Positions 16,221 to 25,109 of a stretch of 49,934 bases of DNA are shown here, piece after piece. This stretch comes from Sphingobacteriaceae bacterium (GTDB lineage Bacteria > Bacteroidota > Bacteroidia > B-17B0 > Aurantibacillaceae). The notes below the pieces were generated by a model that had not been told where the DNA came from, did not search any database, and worked only from the letters and a program-made list of their open reading frames with translations. Location of the stretch: the NCBI GenBank assembly GCA_947480015.1, contig CANKBS010000028.1, positions 1 to 49,934 of the forward strand, given 5' to 3'. The position numbers and the translations under genes are program-made. Position 1 is the stretch's first letter; each line of letters begins with the position of its first letter.

Positions 16221-16550
16221 ATGGCGAGTGATTGGGAAATATTACAAAAAAAATTAAAAGATCGTTTCGATAGTGAGGTAGATTATGATTCTATTTTGTT
16301 TTTAATTGGTTTGCAGGAATTAGGAAAGCCTTACCGCAAATACAAAAAGGACGAGAAGTTGGAAATCATGCACATTGCAATTTGTACCTTATTGGAGCCT
16401 TTTGGTTTTTACGAATTTGTTGGCAAAGATGAAGATGGCTGGCCTCACTGGAACTTGAAAGAGAACCTGCCTTTTTTAGATGCCAAACAACAAAACAAAT
16501 TGATTATAGATTCTATTATCGATTATTTTAAACGCGAGGAGTTTATTTAA
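16221..16550 (+). CDS. Small conserved protein of unknown function
   Basis: A 109-residue soluble, acidic protein with no signal peptide and no membrane segment. It starts MASDWEILQKKLKDRF and has a mostly helical first half (LFLIGLQELGKPYRKYKKDE) and a DEDGWPHWNLKENLPF segment rich in aromatic residues. I recall similar short proteins upstream of the dcw cluster in other Bacteroidota, but no function is known to me. It is separated from mraZ by 444 bp that include the MraZ operator, so it is not part of that operon. Confidence 0.7.
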   Translation: MASDWEILQKKLKDRFDSEVDYDSILFLIGLQELGKPYRKYKKDEKLEIMHIAICTLLEPFGFYEFVGKDEDGWPHWNLKENLPFLDAKQQNKLIIDSIIDYFKREEFI

Positions 16551-16919
16551 TTCGGTATCACACAACATCCAAGATTTCAATAGCAACTATTTTATTTCCC
16601 CCTTGCACCTTAAAGGTGATTAAAATTCTATTGAATAATATTTCGAAGATTAATCTAGGTCCTAGGTCATTTTGTTTTTAAAAAAGTCAAATCTCACCAC
16701 AAAATTCATTTCATATCTTCGTTTTATAGTCAAGTTCAGTACCCACAATTCACATTGTTAATATCCTGAGGATAAGCCTTTCCCAAATCTTAAACTTTTA
16801 TTAACACTTCTCTTTTTACAATCCATGTCAGTTCAATCTTACGGAGCTTTTTTGAATTTTTATGAATGTCTGTTTGGTGTTATGAACATTGTTCATAGCT
16901 CCCTTTTTTTCAACAATAG
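16551..16919. other. Gene-free leader region upstream of the dcw operon
   Basis: AT-rich with no supported gene. The only clear structure is an inverted repeat TATGAAC-ATT-GTTCATA at 16881-16897, a possible regulator binding site about 40 bp upstream of the MraZ boxes. Confidence 0.5.
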
Positions 16920-16954
16920 TGGTAAAAAATGGTGTAAAGTGGTAAAAAGTGGTA
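16920..16954 (+). promoter_or_regulatory. Four TGGTN repeats at 10-bp spacing: candidate MraZ operator
   Basis: TGGT occurs at 16920, 16930, 16940 and 16950, each followed by A or G and five spacer bases, i.e. in exact 10-bp phase. MraZ proteins bind arrays of TGGGN-type (enterobacteria) or AAAGTGG-type (Mollicutes) boxes with the same period and repress their own operon. The array ends 40 bp before the mraZ start and overlaps the expected -33 region. Confidence 0.7.
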
Positions 16955-16964
16955 AAAATATCCC

Positions 16965-16972
16965 TATTTTTG
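16965..16972 (+). promoter_or_regulatory. -7 promoter box of the dcw operon
   Basis: TATTTTTG matches TAnnTTTG exactly, 10 bp after the last MraZ box and 22 bp before the mraZ ATG. A repressor on the boxes would cover the upstream half of this promoter. Confidence 0.55.
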
Positions 16973-16994
16973 CTAAAATCATTTATTTCAAGCA

Positions 16995-17465
16995 ATGACA
17001 AGCCTTATAGGGGAATACGATTGTAAAGTGGACGCAAAAGGGCGTTTCATGTTTCCTATCGACCTGAGGAAGCAATTGGAGGCTTTGTTTGAAAAGGGTT
17101 TTGTGATCAACCGCAATCTTCATCAAAAATGTCTGGTTTTATACCCGCTCAACGAATGGGAAAAACTGAATAAAAAATTAAGCAAGCTCAATCGTTTGAT
17201 AAAAGCTAACGATGTGTTTGTAAGAAAATTTACCGGAGGTGCAACCAATGTGGAGGCCGATAATTCTGGTCGCCTTTTATTGCCAAAGTCATTAAGCGAT
17301 TATGCTGAACTAAAATCTGATCTCAAAGTATTGGGAAGTAATAATGTGATTGAATTGTGGGATAAGAAATTATACGAAGAATTCCTAAATCAGGACATTA
17401 ACATTGAAAAATTAGCAGAAGATGTGTTGGGCGGATTGAATTTTAATGACGCCGGCGATGAGTAA
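16995..17465 (+). CDS. mraZ: Transcriptional regulator MraZ
   Basis: MraZ is a DNA-binding protein of the AbrB/SpoVT fold that forms rings and represses the dcw operon. The 156-residue protein contains two MraZ domains: residues 1-80 (GEYDCKVDAKGRFMFPIDLR) and 81-150 (GGATNVEADNSGRLLLPKSL). Both keep the D-x-x-G-R core that shapes the DNA-binding strand. It is the first gene of the division cluster and lies directly behind a four-box operator, which supports autoregulation. Its end overlaps the start of rsmH. Confidence 0.94.
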   Translation: MTSLIGEYDCKVDAKGRFMFPIDLRKQLEALFEKGFVINRNLHQKCLVLYPLNEWEKLNKKLSKLNRLIKANDVFVRKFTGGATNVEADNSGRLLLPKSLSDYAELKSDLKVLGSNNVIELWDKKLYEEFLNQDINIEKLAEDVLGGLNFNDAGDE

Positions 17466-18372
17466 TGCTTATCACACCTCCGTTCTTTTACAAGCCTGTA
17501 TTGATAATTTAAACATTCAAGCGAATGGCATTTATGTTGATCTCACTTTTGGTGGTGGTGGTCATTCTAAAGCGATCTTAAAACAACTTGGCGAAAAAGG
17601 AAAACTTTTCGCTTTTGATCAGGATCTGGACGCGCATAAAAATGCTTTAAAGGATCCACGCTTTACATTGATTCCGCAAAATTTCAGATACCTTAAAAAT
17701 TATCTGCGTTTACAAGGGATTACGAAAGTAGATGGCATTCTGGGTGATTTGGGTGTTTCATCGCATCAATTTGATGAAGCTGAACGCGGTTTCTCCATTC
17801 GTTTTGAGGCTGAGCTGGACATGCGTATGAATCAAGAGAGCGCCTTAACCGCCAAAAGAATTGTGAACGAATACGATTCAAAACATCTCATTCAAATTTT
17901 TAAAGAGTATGCCGAGATCCACAATGCTGCAAAACTGGTTGGCGAAATTTTAGATGCCAGAAAGGAAAAAGAGATCAGCAGTACAAACGATTTAAAAGAA
18001 GTGATTAAGTCATGCACGCCAAAATTTGAGGAACATAAATACCTGGCCAAAGTTTTTCAGGCACTAAGGATAGAAGTGAACGAAGAGATGGAAGCCTTAA
18101 AAGAGGGTTTGACACAATGTGTGGAAATACTTGAACCAGGCGGACGATTGGTGGTAATCTCATATCACAGTCTGGAAGACCGATTAGTAAAAAATATCAT
18201 ACGGGCCGGCAATGTGGATGGCATAGAAGTGAAGGATGTTATTTATGGTACAGGTAAAAAATTATTTAAAAACCTCACCTCAAAACCAATAGTGCCAACT
18301 GAAGAAGAAATAATAATAAATACAAGGGCCAGAAGTGCGAAGTTGAGAGTGGCGGAGAAGATTATAGATTAA
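17446..18372 (+). CDS. rsmH: 16S rRNA (cytosine-1402-N4)-methyltransferase
   Basis: RsmH (MraW) methylates N4 of C1402 in the decoding centre of 16S rRNA using S-adenosylmethionine. The 308-residue protein shows YHTSVLLQACIDNL, the SAM-binding VDLTFGGGGHSKAIL, LAFDQDLDA-like FAFDQD, GILGDLGVSSHQFDEAERGFS, and the late block LVVISYHSLEDRLVKN. Two starts are possible: ATG at 17446 (20-bp overlap with mraZ) or ATG at 17458 (8-bp overlap, ATGAGTAA), both leaving a plausible short N-terminus before YHTSVLL. Translational coupling to mraZ is likely. It is followed by a 59-bp gap filled with a heptamer repeat. Confidence 0.94.
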   Translation: MTPAMSNAYHTSVLLQACIDNLNIQANGIYVDLTFGGGGHSKAILKQLGEKGKLFAFDQDLDAHKNALKDPRFTLIPQNFRYLKNYLRLQGITKVDGILGDLGVSSHQFDEAERGFSIRFEAELDMRMNQESALTAKRIVNEYDSKHLIQIFKEYAEIHNAAKLVGEILDARKEKEISSTNDLKEVIKSCTPKFEEHKYLAKVFQALRIEVNEEMEALKEGLTQCVEILEPGGRLVVISYHSLEDRLVKNIIRAGNVDGIEVKDVIYGTGKKLFKNLTSKPIVPTEEEIIINTRARSAKLRVAEKIID

Positions 18373-18431: not shown

Positions 18432-18884
18432 TTGGCAAATAAATTCAGAGACATACCGGTTAAACCTGAACCTATCGTAGAAAAGCAAATCGCTGAGGCG
18501 ATTGAGTCGAAAGTTCAGAAGGTCCAAAAACCCCGTAAAAAGGGTGTGTTGGCAAAGGGCTTGTCTTCGGTATTCAGCGGGACTTTTTTAAGTAACGAAA
18601 AAACAATAAAGCATCTTCCATTCATTTTATTTTTAGCCCTCATCGCCATCTTTTATATCGCCAACGGTTATTATGCCGATGATAAAATTCGCGAAGTGAA
18701 CAAAATCTCTAATCAGTTAAAAGAATTACGTTCTGAATACATCTCCACCAAAAGCGAACTCATGTTTGCCAGTAAACAAAGTGAGGTGGCTAAATCGGTA
18801 GAAGTACTGGGATTAAAAGAACCGGTTGTTCCACCCATTAAAATTGAAGTAGACAGCGCACAACTCTATAAAGGCAGTAAATAA
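18432..18884 (+). CDS. ftsL: FtsL-like division protein
   Basis: A small bitopic membrane protein of the divisome, expected to work with FtsQ and a FtsB-type partner to activate FtsW-FtsI. The 150 residues comprise a basic cytoplasmic tail (1-60), one membrane span (about 64-80, FILFLALIAIFYIANGYY) and a short periplasmic coiled coil (VNKISNQLKELRSEYISTKS). Position between rsmH and ftsI is the classic ftsL locus, and this sequence type (long basic N-tail, LGLKEP near the end) is the Bacteroidota form. The start is TTG at 18432; no ATG lies nearby. Only 1 bp separates it from ftsI. Confidence 0.85.
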   Translation: MANKFRDIPVKPEPIVEKQIAEAIESKVQKVQKPRKKGVLAKGLSSVFSGTFLSNEKTIKHLPFILFLALIAIFYIANGYYADDKIREVNKISNQLKELRSEYISTKSELMFASKQSEVAKSVEVLGLKEPVVPPIKIEVDSAQLYKGSK

Positions 18885-18885
18885 A

Positions 18886-21030
18886 TTGGATAAAAAGAAA
18901 GACATATTAAGCCGCACTTACCTCACTTACGTGTTTATGTGTTTGTTTGCTTTGGGCATTCTTTACCGCATTTGTGTGATTCAATTTGTGGAAGGACAAT
19001 ACTGGCGCGACAAAGCTGAGGCCTTTACCACCAAAGTAGAAGACATGGAAGCGGTGCGTGGAAATATTTTTGATGCCAACGGTGCTTTATTGGCTACCTC
19101 TTTACCATATTATGAAATTGCCGTTGATATTAATACACCGGGTGTGACCGAAAAATTTTATAAGGCCAACCGCGATTCACTTTCTTTATTACTAAGCAAT
19201 TTGTTTGGAGATAAAAGTGAGCAAGAGTACCGTAAAATTTTAAACCACGCCCGCAGGGATAACGACCGTTATGTGTTATTAAAACGCAACGTGTCTTATA
19301 AAGATCTTCAAACACTTAAAACTTTCCCAATATTCAGAAAAGGAAAACGTGGGGGCTTGGTTACTTTACAAACCAATCGTCGTGAACGTCCTTTTCAAAT
19401 GCTTGGAGGCCGCACCATTGGTATGGCGCGTCCGGGCATTAAACCGGTTGGTTTAGAAGGCGCTTTTGATTCGGTGCTTACCGGTATTAGTGGGAAACGT
19501 TTGATGCAAAAAATTGCGGGTAATGTGTGGCGCCCAATTAATGATGAAAATGAGGTGGAACCAAAAGATGGCAGTGATTTGTATACAACCATTGATATTA
19601 ATTTGCAAGACGTTGCCACACATGCCTTACTCAAAACATTATTAAAAAATGGTGCATCACATGGATGTGCTATATTAATGGAAGTTAAAACCGGAGAAAT
19701 TAAAGCCATTGCTAATCTCACCAAAAGTGAAGATGATACGGCCAGTTATAACGAGAGTTTTAATTATGCCATTGGTTATCCGACCGAACCGGGATCTACA
19801 TTTAAGTTAGCTTCTTTACTTGCTGTTATCGACGACTACAATGTAAGTCTGGATGAAAAAGTTAATGTGGGTAATGGCGAATGCACTTATTATAACAAAA
19901 CAGTTAAAGATGCCCACGCTCCTGAGTCACCGGTTTTAACGGTACAACGCGTATTTGAAACTTCTTCCAATGTTGGGGTAAGTAAAATCATCACCAAGTA
20001 TTACGCAAAAAATCCACAAAAATTTGCCGACAAATTAAATTCCTTTCACTTAAACAAACCATTGGGTTTATCTATTCCGGGTGAAGGGATTCCGCGTATT
20101 CCACAAACCAGAACAAAATATTGGTCGGGTGTTACCTTGCCGCAATTAAGTTATGGTTACGAAAGTTTAATTACCCCGCTTCAAACTTTAAGTCTGTATA
20201 ACGCAGTGGCTAACGATGGCCGCATGGTGAAACCACGTTTTGTAAAAGAGATTAGAAGAAATGGCATTGTTGTAAAACATTTTGAAACCGAGGTTTTAAT
20301 TGAACACATTGTGAAAAAAGAAACCATTCGTAAAGCTAAGATTATGCTGGAAGGTGTGGTTCAAAATGGTTCAGGAAAAACGTTGAACATTACGGCTTTT
20401 AAAGTAGGTGGCAAAACAGGCACGGCACAAATTGCAAAAACGGGTTCTCGCAAAGGCAGCGGTAAAACCGCATATGGCGATGTGGGTGATAGAACCTATC
20501 AAGCTTCTTTTGTTGGGTATTTCCCTGCTGAAAACCCACTGTATACCTGTATTGTTGTTATTAATTCGCCGAGTAATGGTGTGTATTACGGTGCTGCTTT
20601 AGCCGGACCGGTGTTTAAGGAAATTGCCGAAAAAGTTTATTCAAGTAGTTTGAATTGCATCATCCCTATTAATAACCGTACCCAACTCATCACCAAAGCT
20701 CCTGAAGTCATCACTGCAAAATCGGTTGAACTCATGAGCATTACCAATGCTTTTGCCATTCCTGCTGTTCAGATAGAGTCAGATAAGTTTGTAAGAAAAG
20801 ATAAAAGTGATTCAACCCAATTAAAATTTACGGAATTAAATCTGGAAGGACTTTTAAGAAAAGGCATCATGCCTAATTTGTCCGGTTTATCGGCTAAAGA
20901 CGCTTTGTTTTTATTGGAGAATAATGGCATGAATGTGAGATTACTTGGTTTTGGATCGGTGAAGAAACAAAGTGTAGAAGCCGGACAACGATTCAACAAA
21001 GGCAATAAAATTGTATTAACACTCGGATAA
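18886..21030 (+). CDS. ftsI: Septal peptidoglycan transpeptidase FtsI (PBP3) with PASTA domain
   Basis: A class B penicillin-binding protein that crosslinks peptidoglycan at the septum together with the glycosyltransferase FtsW. The 714-residue protein has one N-terminal membrane span (about 9-28), a pedestal domain (VRGNIFDANGALLAT) and the transpeptidase domain with all three motifs: SxxK in PGSTFKLAS (active serine), SSN in FETSSNVGVSK, and KTG in VGGKTGTAQIA. The last ~60 residues are one PASTA domain (IMPNLSGLSAKDALFLLENN), usual in Bacteroidota but absent from E. coli FtsI. The start is TTG at 18886, one base after ftsL; murE follows after 5 bp. Confidence 0.95.
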   Translation: MDKKKDILSRTYLTYVFMCLFALGILYRICVIQFVEGQYWRDKAEAFTTKVEDMEAVRGNIFDANGALLATSLPYYEIAVDINTPGVTEKFYKANRDSLSLLLSNLFGDKSEQEYRKILNHARRDNDRYVLLKRNVSYKDLQTLKTFPIFRKGKRGGLVTLQTNRRERPFQMLGGRTIGMARPGIKPVGLEGAFDSVLTGISGKRLMQKIAGNVWRPINDENEVEPKDGSDLYTTIDINLQDVATHALLKTLLKNGASHGCAILMEVKTGEIKAIANLTKSEDDTASYNESFNYAIGYPTEPGSTFKLASLLAVIDDYNVSLDEKVNVGNGECTYYNKTVKDAHAPESPVLTVQRVFETSSNVGVSKIITKYYAKNPQKFADKLNSFHLNKPLGLSIPGEGIPRIPQTRTKYWSGVTLPQLSYGYESLITPLQTLSLYNAVANDGRMVKPRFVKEIRRNGIVVKHFETEVLIEHIVKKETIRKAKIMLEGVVQNGSGKTLNITAFKVGGKTGTAQIAKTGSRKGSGKTAYGDVGDRTYQASFVGYFPAENPLYTCIVVINSPSNGVYYGAALAGPVFKEIAEKVYSSSLNCIIPINNRTQLITKAPEVITAKSVELMSITNAFAIPAVQIESDKFVRKDKSDSTQLKFTELNLEGLLRKGIMPNLSGLSAKDALFLLENNGMNVRLLGFGSVKKQSVEAGQRFNKGNKIVLTLG

Positions 21031-21035
21031 AATAA

Positions 21036-22499
21036 GTGAAACTATTAAGCGACATATTATATAAAGTTAGACTGGAAGAAGTACATGGCTCTACGCACAT
21101 GGCAATTTCATCGGTGACTTTTGATTCGCGTAAAGTGAAGAAGGGATGTTTGTTTGTGGCTACCCGTGGCAGTTTAGTAGATGGTCACGAGTATATTCAG
21201 AAGGCTATTGAAAACGGCGCCATTGGCATTGTTTGTGAAGATATGCCTGAGCAAAGGAACGAAGGCATTACTTATGTGAAAGTGACCGATTCTACTTACT
21301 CATTAGGCATTATCGCTTGCAATTTTTTTGATAATCCTTCCGATAAACTAAAACTGATAGGGGTTACGGGAACAAACGGCAAAACTACTACCGTTACCTT
21401 ATTATTTAATTTATTTAAATCGCTGGGATATTCCGTTGGCTTATTATCCACTGTTCAGAACAAGATTAACAATACCATTATTCCATCTACTCATACGACT
21501 CCTGATGCCTTAGCACTGAACGAATTGCTGGATACCATGGTGGAACAAAGTTGTGAATTTGTGTTTATGGAAGTGAGTTCGCATGCGATAGTGCAAAATC
21601 GTATTGCCGGCGTAACTTTTACCGGTGGGGTATTCACCAATATCACGCACGATCATTTAGACTATCACAAAACCTTCGACGAATACATTCGTGCCAAAAA
21701 ACGTTTTTTCGATTTGTTGCCAAATAACGCCTTTGCTCTGGTAAATAAGGATGACAAAAACGGTGTGGTGATGCTGCAAAACACCAAAGCCAAAACCAAC
21801 ACCTATGCCTTACGCAATGTGGCCGACTTTAAATGCCGCATTATTGAGAACCATTTAAATGGTTTGTTCCTCAATATCGATAATCAAGAAATTTGGGTAA
21901 AACTCATTGGCACTTTTAACGCATACAATATGTTGGCTGTATATGCAACCGCTATTTTATTAAAACAAGATAAAACCAATATTCTCACCGCACTCAGTAA
22001 TTTAAATTCGGTAGAAGGACGTTTTCAATACATCAAGTCGCCAAATGGGGTAATCGGAATTGTTGACTATGCGCACACGCCTGATGCTTTAAAGAATGTA
22101 CTCGAAACCATAAAAGATATTCGCAGTGGTAACGAACAAGTCATTACTCTTGTGGGATGCGGTGGCGATCGCGATTCAGCGAAACGTCCGGTGATGGCTG
22201 CCATTGCCTGTGAGTACAGTAATAAAATTATTCTTACTTCCGATAATCCACGCAGCGAAGATCCTGAAGAAATTCTGAATCAGATGCAAAAAGGAATTAA
22301 TCCCTTTGATTCTAAAAAAACATTGCGCATCACCGATCGTCGTGAAGCCATTAAAACGGCCTGTAGTTTAAGCAAGCCGGGCGATATAATCCTGATAGCC
22401 GGAAAAGGTCACGAAAAGTATCAGGAAATAAAAGGCGTGAAACACGATTTTGACGATTTAGAAATATTAAAAGAAACTATTAAAACCCTGGGCATATAA
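21036..22499 (+). CDS. murE: UDP-MurNAc-tripeptide synthetase (meso-DAP adding)
   Basis: MurE adds the third amino acid to the peptidoglycan stem peptide in the cytoplasm with ATP. The 487-residue protein has the three Mur ligase domains: SRKVKKGCLFVA-type N-terminus, ATP site GVTGTNGKTTTVTLL (about 108-122), central EVSSHAIVQNRI and THDHLDYH, and C-terminal GRFQYI, VDYAHTPDAL. The DNPRSEDP motif is that of enzymes using meso-diaminopimelate rather than lysine, predicting DAP-type peptidoglycan. The start is GTG at 21036, 5 bp after ftsI; mraY starts immediately after the stop codon with no gap. Confidence 0.96.
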   Translation: MKLLSDILYKVRLEEVHGSTHMAISSVTFDSRKVKKGCLFVATRGSLVDGHEYIQKAIENGAIGIVCEDMPEQRNEGITYVKVTDSTYSLGIIACNFFDNPSDKLKLIGVTGTNGKTTTVTLLFNLFKSLGYSVGLLSTVQNKINNTIIPSTHTTPDALALNELLDTMVEQSCEFVFMEVSSHAIVQNRIAGVTFTGGVFTNITHDHLDYHKTFDEYIRAKKRFFDLLPNNAFALVNKDDKNGVVMLQNTKAKTNTYALRNVADFKCRIIENHLNGLFLNIDNQEIWVKLIGTFNAYNMLAVYATAILLKQDKTNILTALSNLNSVEGRFQYIKSPNGVIGIVDYAHTPDALKNVLETIKDIRSGNEQVITLVGCGGDRDSAKRPVMAAIACEYSNKIILTSDNPRSEDPEEILNQMQKGINPFDSKKTLRITDRREAIKTACSLSKPGDIILIAGKGHEKYQEIKGVKHDFDDLEILKETIKTLGI

Positions 22500-23762
22500 A
22501 TGTTATATTATTTATTCAATTACCTAGATAAAACTTTCGACTTCCCAGGAGCGGGTGTATTCCAGTACATTTCCTTTCGCGCGGCAATGGCACTTATTTT
22601 TTCTTTATTGATCTCTTTGGTATTTGGTAAACGCATCATTGAAATTATCCGCAAAAAACAAATTGGTGAAACCATTCGTGAATTAGGATTAGACGGACAA
22701 AAACAAAAAACCGGCACACCTACCATGGGAGGTTTGATCATTATTGCGGCGATCATTATTCCAACCTTGTTGTTCGCTAAAATTCACAATGTATACATCG
22801 TCTTAATGCTCATCACCACCATTTGGCTAGGAGCTATCGGATTTTTGGATGATTATATTAAAGTCTTCAAAAAAAATAAAGAAGGCTTGTCGGGTAAATT
22901 TAAAGTGGTAGGACAGGTTGGTATTGGTTTAATTGTGGGTTGTGTTTTGTATTTCCATCCTGATGTCGTTGTAAAAGAGCGCGTATTATCCACCTCAAAA
23001 GATTTGGGTACAATTTCATCCAATTTCGAACATAAGATGAACAGTCCGAAATACGCCGAACATGCTGTAAAAACCTTAAAAACAACCATTCCATTTTCAA
23101 AAAACAATGAATTGGATTATGGCAAATTTATTTCATGGGCTTGTGATGATTGCATGAAATACGGCTGGTTAATTTTCATCCCCATGGTGATTTTAATTGT
23201 CACCGCAGTTTCTAACGGCGCTAACATTACCGACGGTATTGATGGCTTAGCCGCCGGAACATCGGCTATCATTGGCACGGTGCTTGGTATTCTGGCTTAC
23301 GTATCGGGTAATACCGTGTTTGCCGATTATTTAAATATCATGTACATCCCAAATTCAGGTGAGCTGGTGGTGTTTATTGCGGCCTTTATTGGGGCCTGTA
23401 TTGGCTTCTTATGGTACAATTCATATCCTGCGCAGGTTTTTATGGGCGACACCGGAAGCCTGGCTATTGGCGGTATCATTGCCGTGTACGCCATTGCCAT
23501 TCGCAAGGAATTATTACTGCCTATTTTATGCGGCATTTTTTTAGTAGAAGCGTTATCGGTGATCATGCAGGTGTATTATTTCAAATTTCAAAAAAGAAAA
23601 CACGGCATGGAATACGCTCAGGCAAACCGATTATTTAAAATGGCGCCCCTTCATCACCATTATCAGAAAAGTGGGTTTCATGAAACAAAAATTGTGATGC
23701 GCTTTTTCATTATAGGCATTGCTTTAGCCGTATTAACCTTTGTGACTTTGAAATTACGTTAA
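22500..23762 (+). CDS. mraY: Phospho-MurNAc-pentapeptide transferase
   Basis: MraY attaches phospho-MurNAc-pentapeptide to undecaprenyl phosphate, making lipid I at the inner face of the membrane. About ten membrane spans are visible. Catalytic blocks include GTPTMGGL near residue 72, [19 protein letters not shown] (Asp pair), [28 protein letters not shown] and the HHHYQKSG histidine cluster. At 420 residues it is about 60 longer than E. coli MraY because of an extramembrane insert around residues 155-215 ([18 protein letters not shown]...), as in other Bacteroidota. It begins directly after the murE stop codon, and murD begins directly after its own. Confidence 0.96.
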
Positions 23763-25109
23763 GTGGCAAAACGATTGGTTATACTGGGTAGTGGAGAGAG
23801 TGGCGTGGGGTGCGCGATACTGGGTAAACAAAAAGGATTTGATGTTTTTGTGAGTGACCGTGGATTAATAAAAGATAAATACAAACAACAACTAATAGAA
23901 GAAAATATTTTGTTTGAAGAGGGAGTACATACCGAAGCTAAAATTTTGAACGCCGATGAGGTGATCAAGAGTCCGGGTATTCCTGACAAGGTAGAACTTG
24001 TTCAAAAATTACGGTCAAAGAATATTCCGGTGATTTCTGAAATTGAATTCGCAGGAAGATATACGAATGCTACAAAAATTTGTATTAGCGGATCGAATGG
24101 AAAAACCACAACCACTTTGCTCACCTACCACATCATGAAAAAGGCCGGATACAACGTGGGTTTGGGTGGCAATGTGGGTAAAAGTTTTGCACTACAGGTA
24201 GCCCGCGAAAATTTCGACTATTATGTGCTGGAGCTTAGCAGTTTTCAGTTGGATGGGATGTTCGACTTTAGGGCAGATGTGTCGGTGCTCTTAAATATTA
24301 CTCCCGATCACTTAGATCGTTACGATTATAAATTCGAAAATTACGTAGCCTCAAAATTCCGAATCACACAAAACCAAAGTAACAAAAATTATTTTGTTTA
24401 CTGCGCCGACGATGAAGCCATAACCACCTTCATGCAGCATCACAAAATAAAAGCACAGCTTGTGCCATTCAGTATCAAAAAACCAATTGATGGGAATGGC
24501 GCTTATTTAACCGAAAACCAAATAACCCTTAATTATAAACCAAACCAAAATCCCTTAATTATGACAATTGAAGAACTAGCATTGCAAGGTAAACACAACG
24601 TTTACAACAGCATGGCAGCATCGCTGGCCACACGTATTGTAGATGTACGTAAAGAAATCATCCGCGAAAGTTTACAAGATTTCCAGAACATCGAACACCG
24701 ATTGGAATTTGTAGCTTCTATTAACGGTATTGAATTTATAAACGATTCAAAAGCCACCAACATTAATTCAACCTGGTATGCGCTTGAAAGCATGGAAAAA
24801 CCTGTGGTTTGGATTTGCGGCGGACAAGATAAAGGAAATGATTACAATGAGTTAAGTGAACTCGTAAAAGCTCGAGTGAAAGCTATTATCTGTTTAGGAA
24901 AAGATAACAGTAAAATTATTGCTGCTTTTAAAGATTTGGTCGAAATCATTGTTCAAACCGACAATGCTTCTGATGCAGTAGCGGCTTCTTATAAAATTGG
25001 TAAAAAAGGTGACGTGGTATTATTATCACCAGCCTGCGCTAGTTTCGACCTCTTTCAAAATTATGAAGACAGAGGAATGCAGTTTAAAGCAGCTGTTAGA
25101 TCCCTTTAA
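23763..25109 (+). CDS. murD: UDP-MurNAc-L-alanine:D-glutamate ligase
   Basis: MurD adds D-glutamate to UDP-MurNAc-L-alanine in the cytoplasm. The 448-residue protein starts with the Rossmann-like UDP site (RLVILGSGESGVGCAILG), followed by VIKSPGIP, the ATP loop ISGSNGKTTTTLLT (about 103-116), LELSSFQLDGM, NITPDHLDRY, and the C-terminal FINDSKATNINSTWYAL and GGQDKGNDY. GTG at 23763, right after the mraY stop, is the only reasonable start. A 24-bp gap leads to ftsW. Confidence 0.95.
   Translation: MAKRLVILGSGESGVGCAILGKQKGFDVFVSDRGLIKDKYKQQLIEENILFEEGVHTEAKILNADEVIKSPGIPDKVELVQKLRSKNIPVISEIEFAGRYTNATKICISGSNGKTTTTLLTYHIMKKAGYNVGLGGNVGKSFALQVARENFDYYVLELSSFQLDGMFDFRADVSVLLNITPDHLDRYDYKFENYVASKFRITQNQSNKNYFVYCADDEAITTFMQHHKIKAQLVPFSIKKPIDGNGAYLTENQITLNYKPNQNPLIMTIEELALQGKHNVYNSMAASLATRIVDVRKEIIRESLQDFQNIEHRLEFVASINGIEFINDSKATNINSTWYALESMEKPVVWICGGQDKGNDYNELSELVKARVKAIICLGKDNSKIIAAFKDLVEIIVQTDNASDAVAASYKIGKKGDVVLLSPACASFDLFQNYEDRGMQFKAAVRSL

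Follow-up and report, generated by a model that had tools for sequence, protein, structure and literature searches.

Analyzing the region upstream of mraZ in a Sphingobacteriaceae bacterium (assembly GCA_947480015.1, contig CANKBS010000028.1; the window is the whole stretch of 49,934 nucleotides that was analyzed), we found an array of four phased, predicted MraZ boxes placed over a Bacteroidota promoter and, next to it, a second conserved element that most likely is a DnaA box. These sequence patterns suggest that the division and cell-wall (dcw) operon is probably under the control of MraZ, which would act in self-repression, and is most likely also a direct target of DnaA, linking dcw transcription to the initiation of replication. 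Coupling of replication and division in bacteria is a long-standing question, and on the transcriptional control of division in Bacteroidota we found little in the literature searched. Most Bacteroidia examined combine a DnaA-type box with a MraZ array and a -7 box at near-fixed distances. This would constitute a concrete and testable replication-division link, and it names a candidate DnaA regulon. If this is true, replication initiation would be coupled directly to the genes for cell division and wall synthesis.

The array lies directly upstream of mraZ (16995..17465, + strand, 156 aa), which heads the dcw cluster. Its product matches TIGR00242 with 111.6 bits (cut-off 98.35) as well as PF02381, and by sequence it matches the PDB MraZ structures 1n0e, 9qlg, 9qlr, and 9sx6. 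Residues D13, K15, G16, R17, D89, and R93 are invariant in 14 sequences, keeping the DxxxR motif of MraZ in both half-domains. On the same strand follow rsmH (mraW) as the next gene of the cluster (17446..18372, PF01795), an FtsL-like gene (18432..18884, PF19579), an ftsI-type gene for a penicillin-binding protein with PASTA (18886..21030; PF00905, PF03793, and PF03717), and, as the rest of the dcw cluster examined, genes for a Mur ligase that is murE-type by gene order, an mraY-type transferase, and a murD-type ligase (21036..25109). The region that carries the boxes is the regulatory region of this dcw operon. Just upstream of it, a 109-aa open frame (window 16221-16550) is without a Pfam match.

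The sequence-only reading of this DNA had described four boxes in 10-bp phase before a perfect TAnnTTTG, and their coordinates were confirmed on the sequence. TGG recurs in exact 10-bp phase at 16920, 16930, 16940, and 16950, forming four direct repeats on the + strand over 16919-16954, with the predicted MraZ boxes being GTGGTA (box 1, 16919..16924), ATGGTG (box 2, 16929..16934), GTGGTA (box 3, 16939..16944), and GTGGTA (box 4, 16949..16954). The GTG core is present in boxes 1, 3, and 4 and is replaced by ATG in the weaker box 2, so at least three direct repeats at the 10-bp period are present; AAAGTGG is matched exactly by boxes 3 and 4 only. The -7 promoter box, TATTTTTG, is a perfect TAnnTTTG at 16965..16972 (+). 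Since TAnnTTTG sits at -12 to -5 in the transcription start site map of F. psychrophilum described in PMC9723704, the start is predicted at about 16977 (16977..16977, +), and the GTGG starts of boxes 4, 3, and 1 and the ATGG start of box 2 fall at about -28, -38, -58, and -48, respectively. Box 3 thus lies over about -38 to -33, the -33 region of the sigma factor, and the earlier claim that the operator was placed over the promoter holds, with boxes 4 and 3 at -28 and -38. Read by eye, the window has no TTTG near -33, the region that box 3 occupies. According to PMC7366714, a -33 motif was not identifiable in the RNA-seq data of F. johnsoniae, so the missing TTTG is not telling, and this element may not define the sigma-ABfr class. 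A pattern scan of 16500-17100 found no sigma-70-type promoter on the + strand.

The genome to which the window belongs carries one clear MraZ array. A three-box pattern derived from boxes 1-3 has a single match in the 3.77-Mb genome, at this site, and its reversed-pattern control has 0; a looser three-box pattern finds 5 places, 2 of them overlapping here and 3 elsewhere, with 3 for the control. The two-box pattern GTGGT-N5-GTGGT is not enriched genome-wide (11 places vs 18 control matches), and no second MraZ target is evident in this genome with the two- and three-box patterns.

For comparison, 258 mraZ loci were gathered, including 30 from the window's own genome and its relatives, 29 from a phylum-wide search, 80 from named genome contigs, and 119 from fetched stretches. 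The phylum-wide search covered 198 genomes, 186 of them with MraZ, and loci were taken from the best-scoring matches listed; 30 loci given and 109 fetched stem from this search, with ten listed places, one of them at a contig edge, omitted under no formal rule. The 80 genome contigs are the best 80 of 565 relatives, lean towards Flavobacterium, and were all assigned to Bacteroidia from their record titles. After leaving out L010 and L060, which have short upstream regions, and then 53 similar regions, 203 non-redundant regions remained, consisting of 69 from the window's class by kinship, 47 contigs taken as Bacteroidia, and 87 from other classes. Counts of element presence omit four further regions with fewer than two boxes, leaving 114 Bacteroidia and 85 regions of other classes, and related genomes within the sample are not independent. 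MraZ was not found in 12 of the 198 phylum genomes, and 8 of these 12 belong to family f39. One locus titled as a Klebsiella pneumoniae MAG (L094, CALPPA020000029.1) has a mraZ of Bacteroidia type, and its label is probably wrong.

The phased array is conserved throughout the phylum. Within 200 bp before the mraZ start, at least two, three, and four sense TGG at 10-bp steps occur in 182, 117, and 23 of the 203 Bacteroidota regions, compared with 13.8, 0.1, and 0 in dinucleotide shuffles of the same regions. The antisense strand gives 23, 0, and 0 at the 10-bp step, and the other sense periods (6-9 and 11-15) give at most 16, 0, and 0. Among all 256 regions, 23 fail, but in many of these, visual inspection reveals GTGG or GTGT that keep the phase. 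The interpretation of the repeats as a MraZ operator, also made from the sequence at first reading, is thereby supported, in that most of the regions examined, phylum-wide, have a phased array before mraZ; a lack of phased boxes in the mraZ promoters of relatives, which had been named as a refutation, is not what the counts show. On the antisense strand, a second GTGG pair at 10 bp, located some 145-177 bp upstream of mraZ, points towards a divergent gene for an alpha/beta-hydrolase in L005, L028, L030, L098, L113, L117, and L131. The divergent hydrolase is present in 60 of the 135 loci with 1 kb upstream, 7 of these 60 having the antisense GTGG pair, and such a pair lies within the last 200 bp in 19 of 258 loci.

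The sequence-only reading stood as regards the array and missed both the shift of the operator between classes, described below, and a conserved DnaA-box-like element beside it. In the window, this predicted DnaA box is TTTTCAACA at 16907..16915 (+), about -70 to -62 and 12 bp upstream of MraZ box 1. Word counts in Bacteroidia put TCAACAA, TATTAAC, and TATCAAC far over expectation upstream of the first box, and the element reads TT[AT]T[CT]AACA, with TTTTCAACA, TTATTAACA, and TTATCAACA making up 37, 24, and 22 of the 89 copies found with a wider pattern. TTWTYAACA is present in 85 of 114 Bacteroidia promoters and TTWTCCACA in 11 others, without overlap, giving a union of 96 of 114. Scrambled motifs reach a mean of 3.4 (sd 5.6) and a maximum of 61 of 114 for the Bacteroidia union, with the high-scoring scrambles probably overlapping the same conserved stretch; in the other classes, the union is 10 of 85 (scrambles, mean 1.5 and maximum 11). 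Its placement is near-fixed: in 69 of 116 Bacteroidia, a sense copy of TTWTYAACA precedes the first GTGG by exactly 11 or 12 bp. The distance of the element to the -7 box has two peaks, with 38 occurrences at 46-48 bp, 40 at 56-59 bp, and 6 elsewhere, the two peaks being one MraZ box or one helical turn apart. Neither form is present in 18 of the 114 Bacteroidia promoters, among them most of families f15, f22, and f25.

The classical DnaA box is TTWTCCACA, and its consensus is the nine-base TTWTNCACA. The conserved element is most likely a DnaA box as well. Like the classical box it has nine bases, and it carries A or C at position 6, with A predominating at Bacteroidia mraZ (A 88, C 19, G 2, and T 3 of 116 promoters); TTTTCAACA of the window departs from TTWTNCACA at this position. 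We favor DnaA because the same A/C preference at position 6 is found upstream of dnaA in sister classes and because tandem copies of the element precede hup, nrdB, dnaB, and parA-like genes. In 22 sister-class regions upstream of dnaA (17,772 bp, five of them shorter than 300 bp and two genome pairs being close), TTWTYCACA occurs 34 times (0.8 in scrambles) and TTWTYAACA 19 times (1.3), G and T at position 6 occur 1 time each, and 0 of 400 scrambles reach the count for C or A. Two genomes of one family, L335 and L336, differ at the same offset, -343 upstream of dnaA, where one reads AACA and the other CACA. The mraZ regions of the sister classes show no preference at position 6 (A 8, C 7, G 6, and T 5 of 87).

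Upstream of dnaA in the window's own class, the 1 kb examined in 12 Bacteroidia genomes contains no cluster: TTWTYCACA occurs 4 times (scrambles 0.7; 8 of 400 reach this count), TTWTYAACA 5 times (1.7; 24 of 400), and the form with T at position 6 also 4 times. The window's own genome has no box in the 1 kb upstream of dnaA, and pair searches in complete genomes did not locate the oriC of Bacteroidia. These regions without clusters, together with the fact that A is far commoner than C at Bacteroidia mraZ, unlike in the classical box, would suit a different interpretation, in which MraZ has a plain autorepressor operator and TTWTYAACA is the site of a cell-cycle regulator or nucleoid protein other than DnaA. 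We consider this unlikely, however, in view of the enrichment of A and C, not G or T, upstream of sister-class dnaA, the alternation of AACA and CACA at -343, and the contrast between family f19, with TTWTCCACA and the DnaA sequence DHTTV, and the window's own genus and family f21, mostly with TTWTYAACA and DHATV.

If the element is a DnaA box, as we think most likely, its form appears to co-vary with the recognition helix of DnaA, in the few lineages compared. The helix reads DHATV in the window's genus (2/2) and in family f21 (6/6), and in this group, of 15 mraZ promoters listed, 13 carry TTWTYAACA, one carries TTATCCACA, and one neither. DHTTV is found in f19 DnaA (2/2), and the f19 mraZ regions (up to 200 bp) have TTWTCCACA in 7/7 of the genomes listed, two of which also have TTWTYAACA. 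The third variant, DHSTV, is present in the one f18 genome compared (f18 mraZ with TTTTCCACA in 3/4 and TTTTCAACA in 1/4), in the one f20 genome compared (f20 mraZ with TTWTYAACA in 2/2), and in the DnaA of 21 of 22 sister-class genomes. At G001:C1:1330382-1330690 and G157:C1:1536008-1536307, the DNA-binding C-terminal part of DnaA has a second, short match, possibly a solo domain-IV protein or a remnant.

Copies of the element elsewhere point to further candidate targets. Pair searches in 12 complete genomes gave 40 vs 20 and 28 vs 13 control places, a modest excess of about twofold, and in the 14 stretches fetched, some pairs adjoin dnaB, nrdB, ftsZ, parA-like, and hup genes, as well as dnaA in one sister-class genome, one protein of each of these neighbors being confirmed by Pfam. 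An exact 20-bp tandem pair was found at 44 places in 60 Bacteroidia genomes, 31 of which have it, vs 8 places for the reversed control. The 30 of these 44 loci that were fetched adjoin hup (14), transketolase (6), nrdB (4), parA-like (1), and carbamoyl-phosphate synthase (1) genes, with the remaining 4 left without assignment. In the window's genus, 30 HU-gene loci were fetched from the stronger HU matches; each of them carries one box or more, and a pair at 19-21 bp is present in 25 of the 30; in the window's own genome, one of the two HU-gene copies fetched has the 19-21-bp pair. Thus hup, nrdB, dnaB, and parA-like genes are candidate members of a DnaA regulon, judging from the placement of the boxes. 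A wider proposal, for class Bacteroidia, joins a composite DnaA/MraZ switch at dcw, in which a DnaA box would keep a fixed helical face beside 3-4 MraZ boxes over -33, to a DnaA regulon comprising hup, nrdB, dnaB, parA, ftsZ, and transketolase, reached via TTWTYAACA that would co-vary with the Thr-to-Ala change of DHTTV; on this proposal we are evenly divided. No work on a DnaA regulon in Bacteroidota was found in the open-licence literature sampled, which is weak evidence of absence.

Several of these loci can be named individually. Tandem TTWTYMACA copies 19-20 bp apart lie upstream of hup in L346, from the window's own genome, and in L291, L299, L303, L306-L310, L313, L316, L317, and L319-L322. 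The 20-bp pair stands before transketolase in L297 (own genome, G000:C19:59786-59814), L293, L296, L311, L312, and L318, and the gene that flanks the pair on its opposite side, checked in L293 and L297, encodes the GTPase ychF. In genome G134, L279 (1502-1669) has five TTATCCACA boxes in 170 bp between two converging open frames, a cluster that is possibly an origin or a DnaA-titrating site.

Operators of MraZ are already known; the shift of their register between classes is undescribed, as far as the literature searched shows. The majority logo of Bacteroidia, anchored on the last box, is AAAGTGGTAA and fits the Mollicute MraZ consensus (AAAGTGKN3)3 (Fisunov 2016, quoted by PMC5282649 and PMC8475190). 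The supposition, made from the window alone, of a box intermediate between the TGGGN and AAAGTGG forms is therefore not supported. Bacteroidia operators resemble those of Mollicutes, as quoted there, in the box, the 10-bp period, and the place upstream of mraZ, but they have TTWTYMACA at a near-fixed distance in addition, and their last box is followed at 15-16 bp by TAnnTTTG. In 86 of 116 Bacteroidia (47/69 and 39/47, non-redundant), TAnnTT[TC][GA] follows the last GTGG at 15-16 bp, so the operator overlies -33 in this class. In the other classes, a -7 box at this distance is found in just 1 of 87 regions; by simple match, 60 of 87 have TTGAC no more than 70 bp ahead of the first box, 58 of them at 27-40 bp, vs 6 of 116 in Bacteroidia. 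The TTGAC spacing suggests that sister-class boxes probably cover the -10 and start region, like those of Burkholderia cenocepacia and E. coli. B. cenocepacia has four seven-base repeats with three-base spacers before mraZ, a likeness to the window, and both there and in E. coli the repeats are described as following the -10 box and covering the start site (PMC7761207); unlike these, the repeats of the window lie upstream of the -7 box over -33. Within a single phylum, the register of the MraZ operator thus seems to have shifted from class to class along with the promoter type, and such a shift would constrain how repression works, by blocking the -33 contact in Bacteroidia and by covering the start region elsewhere. 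Control of mraZ by LexA, whose motif is of the CGAAC type, was considered as well and not adopted. A LexA site at a mraZ gene from a gut metagenome is reported to be bound by B. subtilis LexA (PMC3998124).

In the window, the whole operator precedes the -7 box and TTTG is missing near -33, so MraZ could also be imagined as an activator that binds ahead of the -7 box at a promoter whose -33 element is poor. This is improbable, since the region of -33 contact is overlapped or flanked by boxes 3 and 4, the absence of a -33 motif is not telling in light of F. johnsoniae (PMC7366714), and MraZ is described as a repressor in E. coli and M. genitalium (PMC8475190). That the array is merely an AT-rich repeat without function is scarcely credible, because, although the region is AT-rich and two-box patterns are not enriched genome-wide, the array is conserved phylum-wide, keeping its phase and its -7 spacing, and shuffles yield hardly any. 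Experimental work on MraZ in Bacteroidota was not found in the open-licence literature sampled, which is weak evidence of absence.

Returning to control of the dcw operon by MraZ and DnaA, we propose that MraZ would bind the four phased boxes covering the -33 region of the sigma-ABfr-type promoter and, once bound, would exclude RNA polymerase from -33, so that the operon represses itself. Direct autorepression by MraZ can reasonably be inferred from the position of the array and from the repression reported for E. coli and M. genitalium (PMC8475190). DnaA would bind TTTTCAACA at about -66, next to the array on a fixed helix face, and from this place, which is that of an upstream regulator, it could activate transcription, or it could compete or cooperate with MraZ 11-12 bp away. 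What the analysis shows are the boxes with their spacing and conservation, the -7 box geometry, and the second conserved element, which recurs upstream of sister-class dnaA and at replication genes; we infer MraZ binding and the direction of its effect, DnaA as the binder, whether it activates or represses, and whether it competes or cooperates with MraZ. The arrangement resembles that of the E. coli mioC promoter, where a MraZ site overlaps a DnaA box at one promoter (Eraso 2014, as cited in PMC4446571), but mioC is another gene, and in most Bacteroidia examined it is the dcw promoter itself that has both elements. It also differs from other DnaA-controlled promoters in that the element is coupled at a near-fixed distance to a MraZ array. 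As far as the literature searched shows, a DnaA-type box beside a MraZ operator is undescribed.

Farther upstream, at 16880-16898, lies a dyad of the form 9+1+9, TTATGAACA-T-TGTTCATAG, that is a genus-level feature. With A at position 6 and G at position 5, the left arm (16880..16888, +) agrees with a DnaA box, and the right arm (16890..16898, -) is an inverted box with its last base off the consensus. The core AACA-N-TGTT is found in 25 of the 44 genus-level loci looked at (17 distinct copies), and 19 of the 44 are without the exact core. A pattern scan flagged 16880-16898 as terminator-like, and Rfam gave nothing at gathering score for 16500-17100; we disfavor an RNA hairpin or terminator here and prefer a DNA dyad, as the inner pair shows no covariation. 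This pair is non-Watson-Crick in 10 of the 17 distinct copies and not even G-T in 7, so the dyad looks conserved as DNA and not as an RNA stem. If any base is allowed at position 5, each arm looks like a DnaA box that carries A at position 6, and the dyad may add two more DnaA sites in the window's genus.
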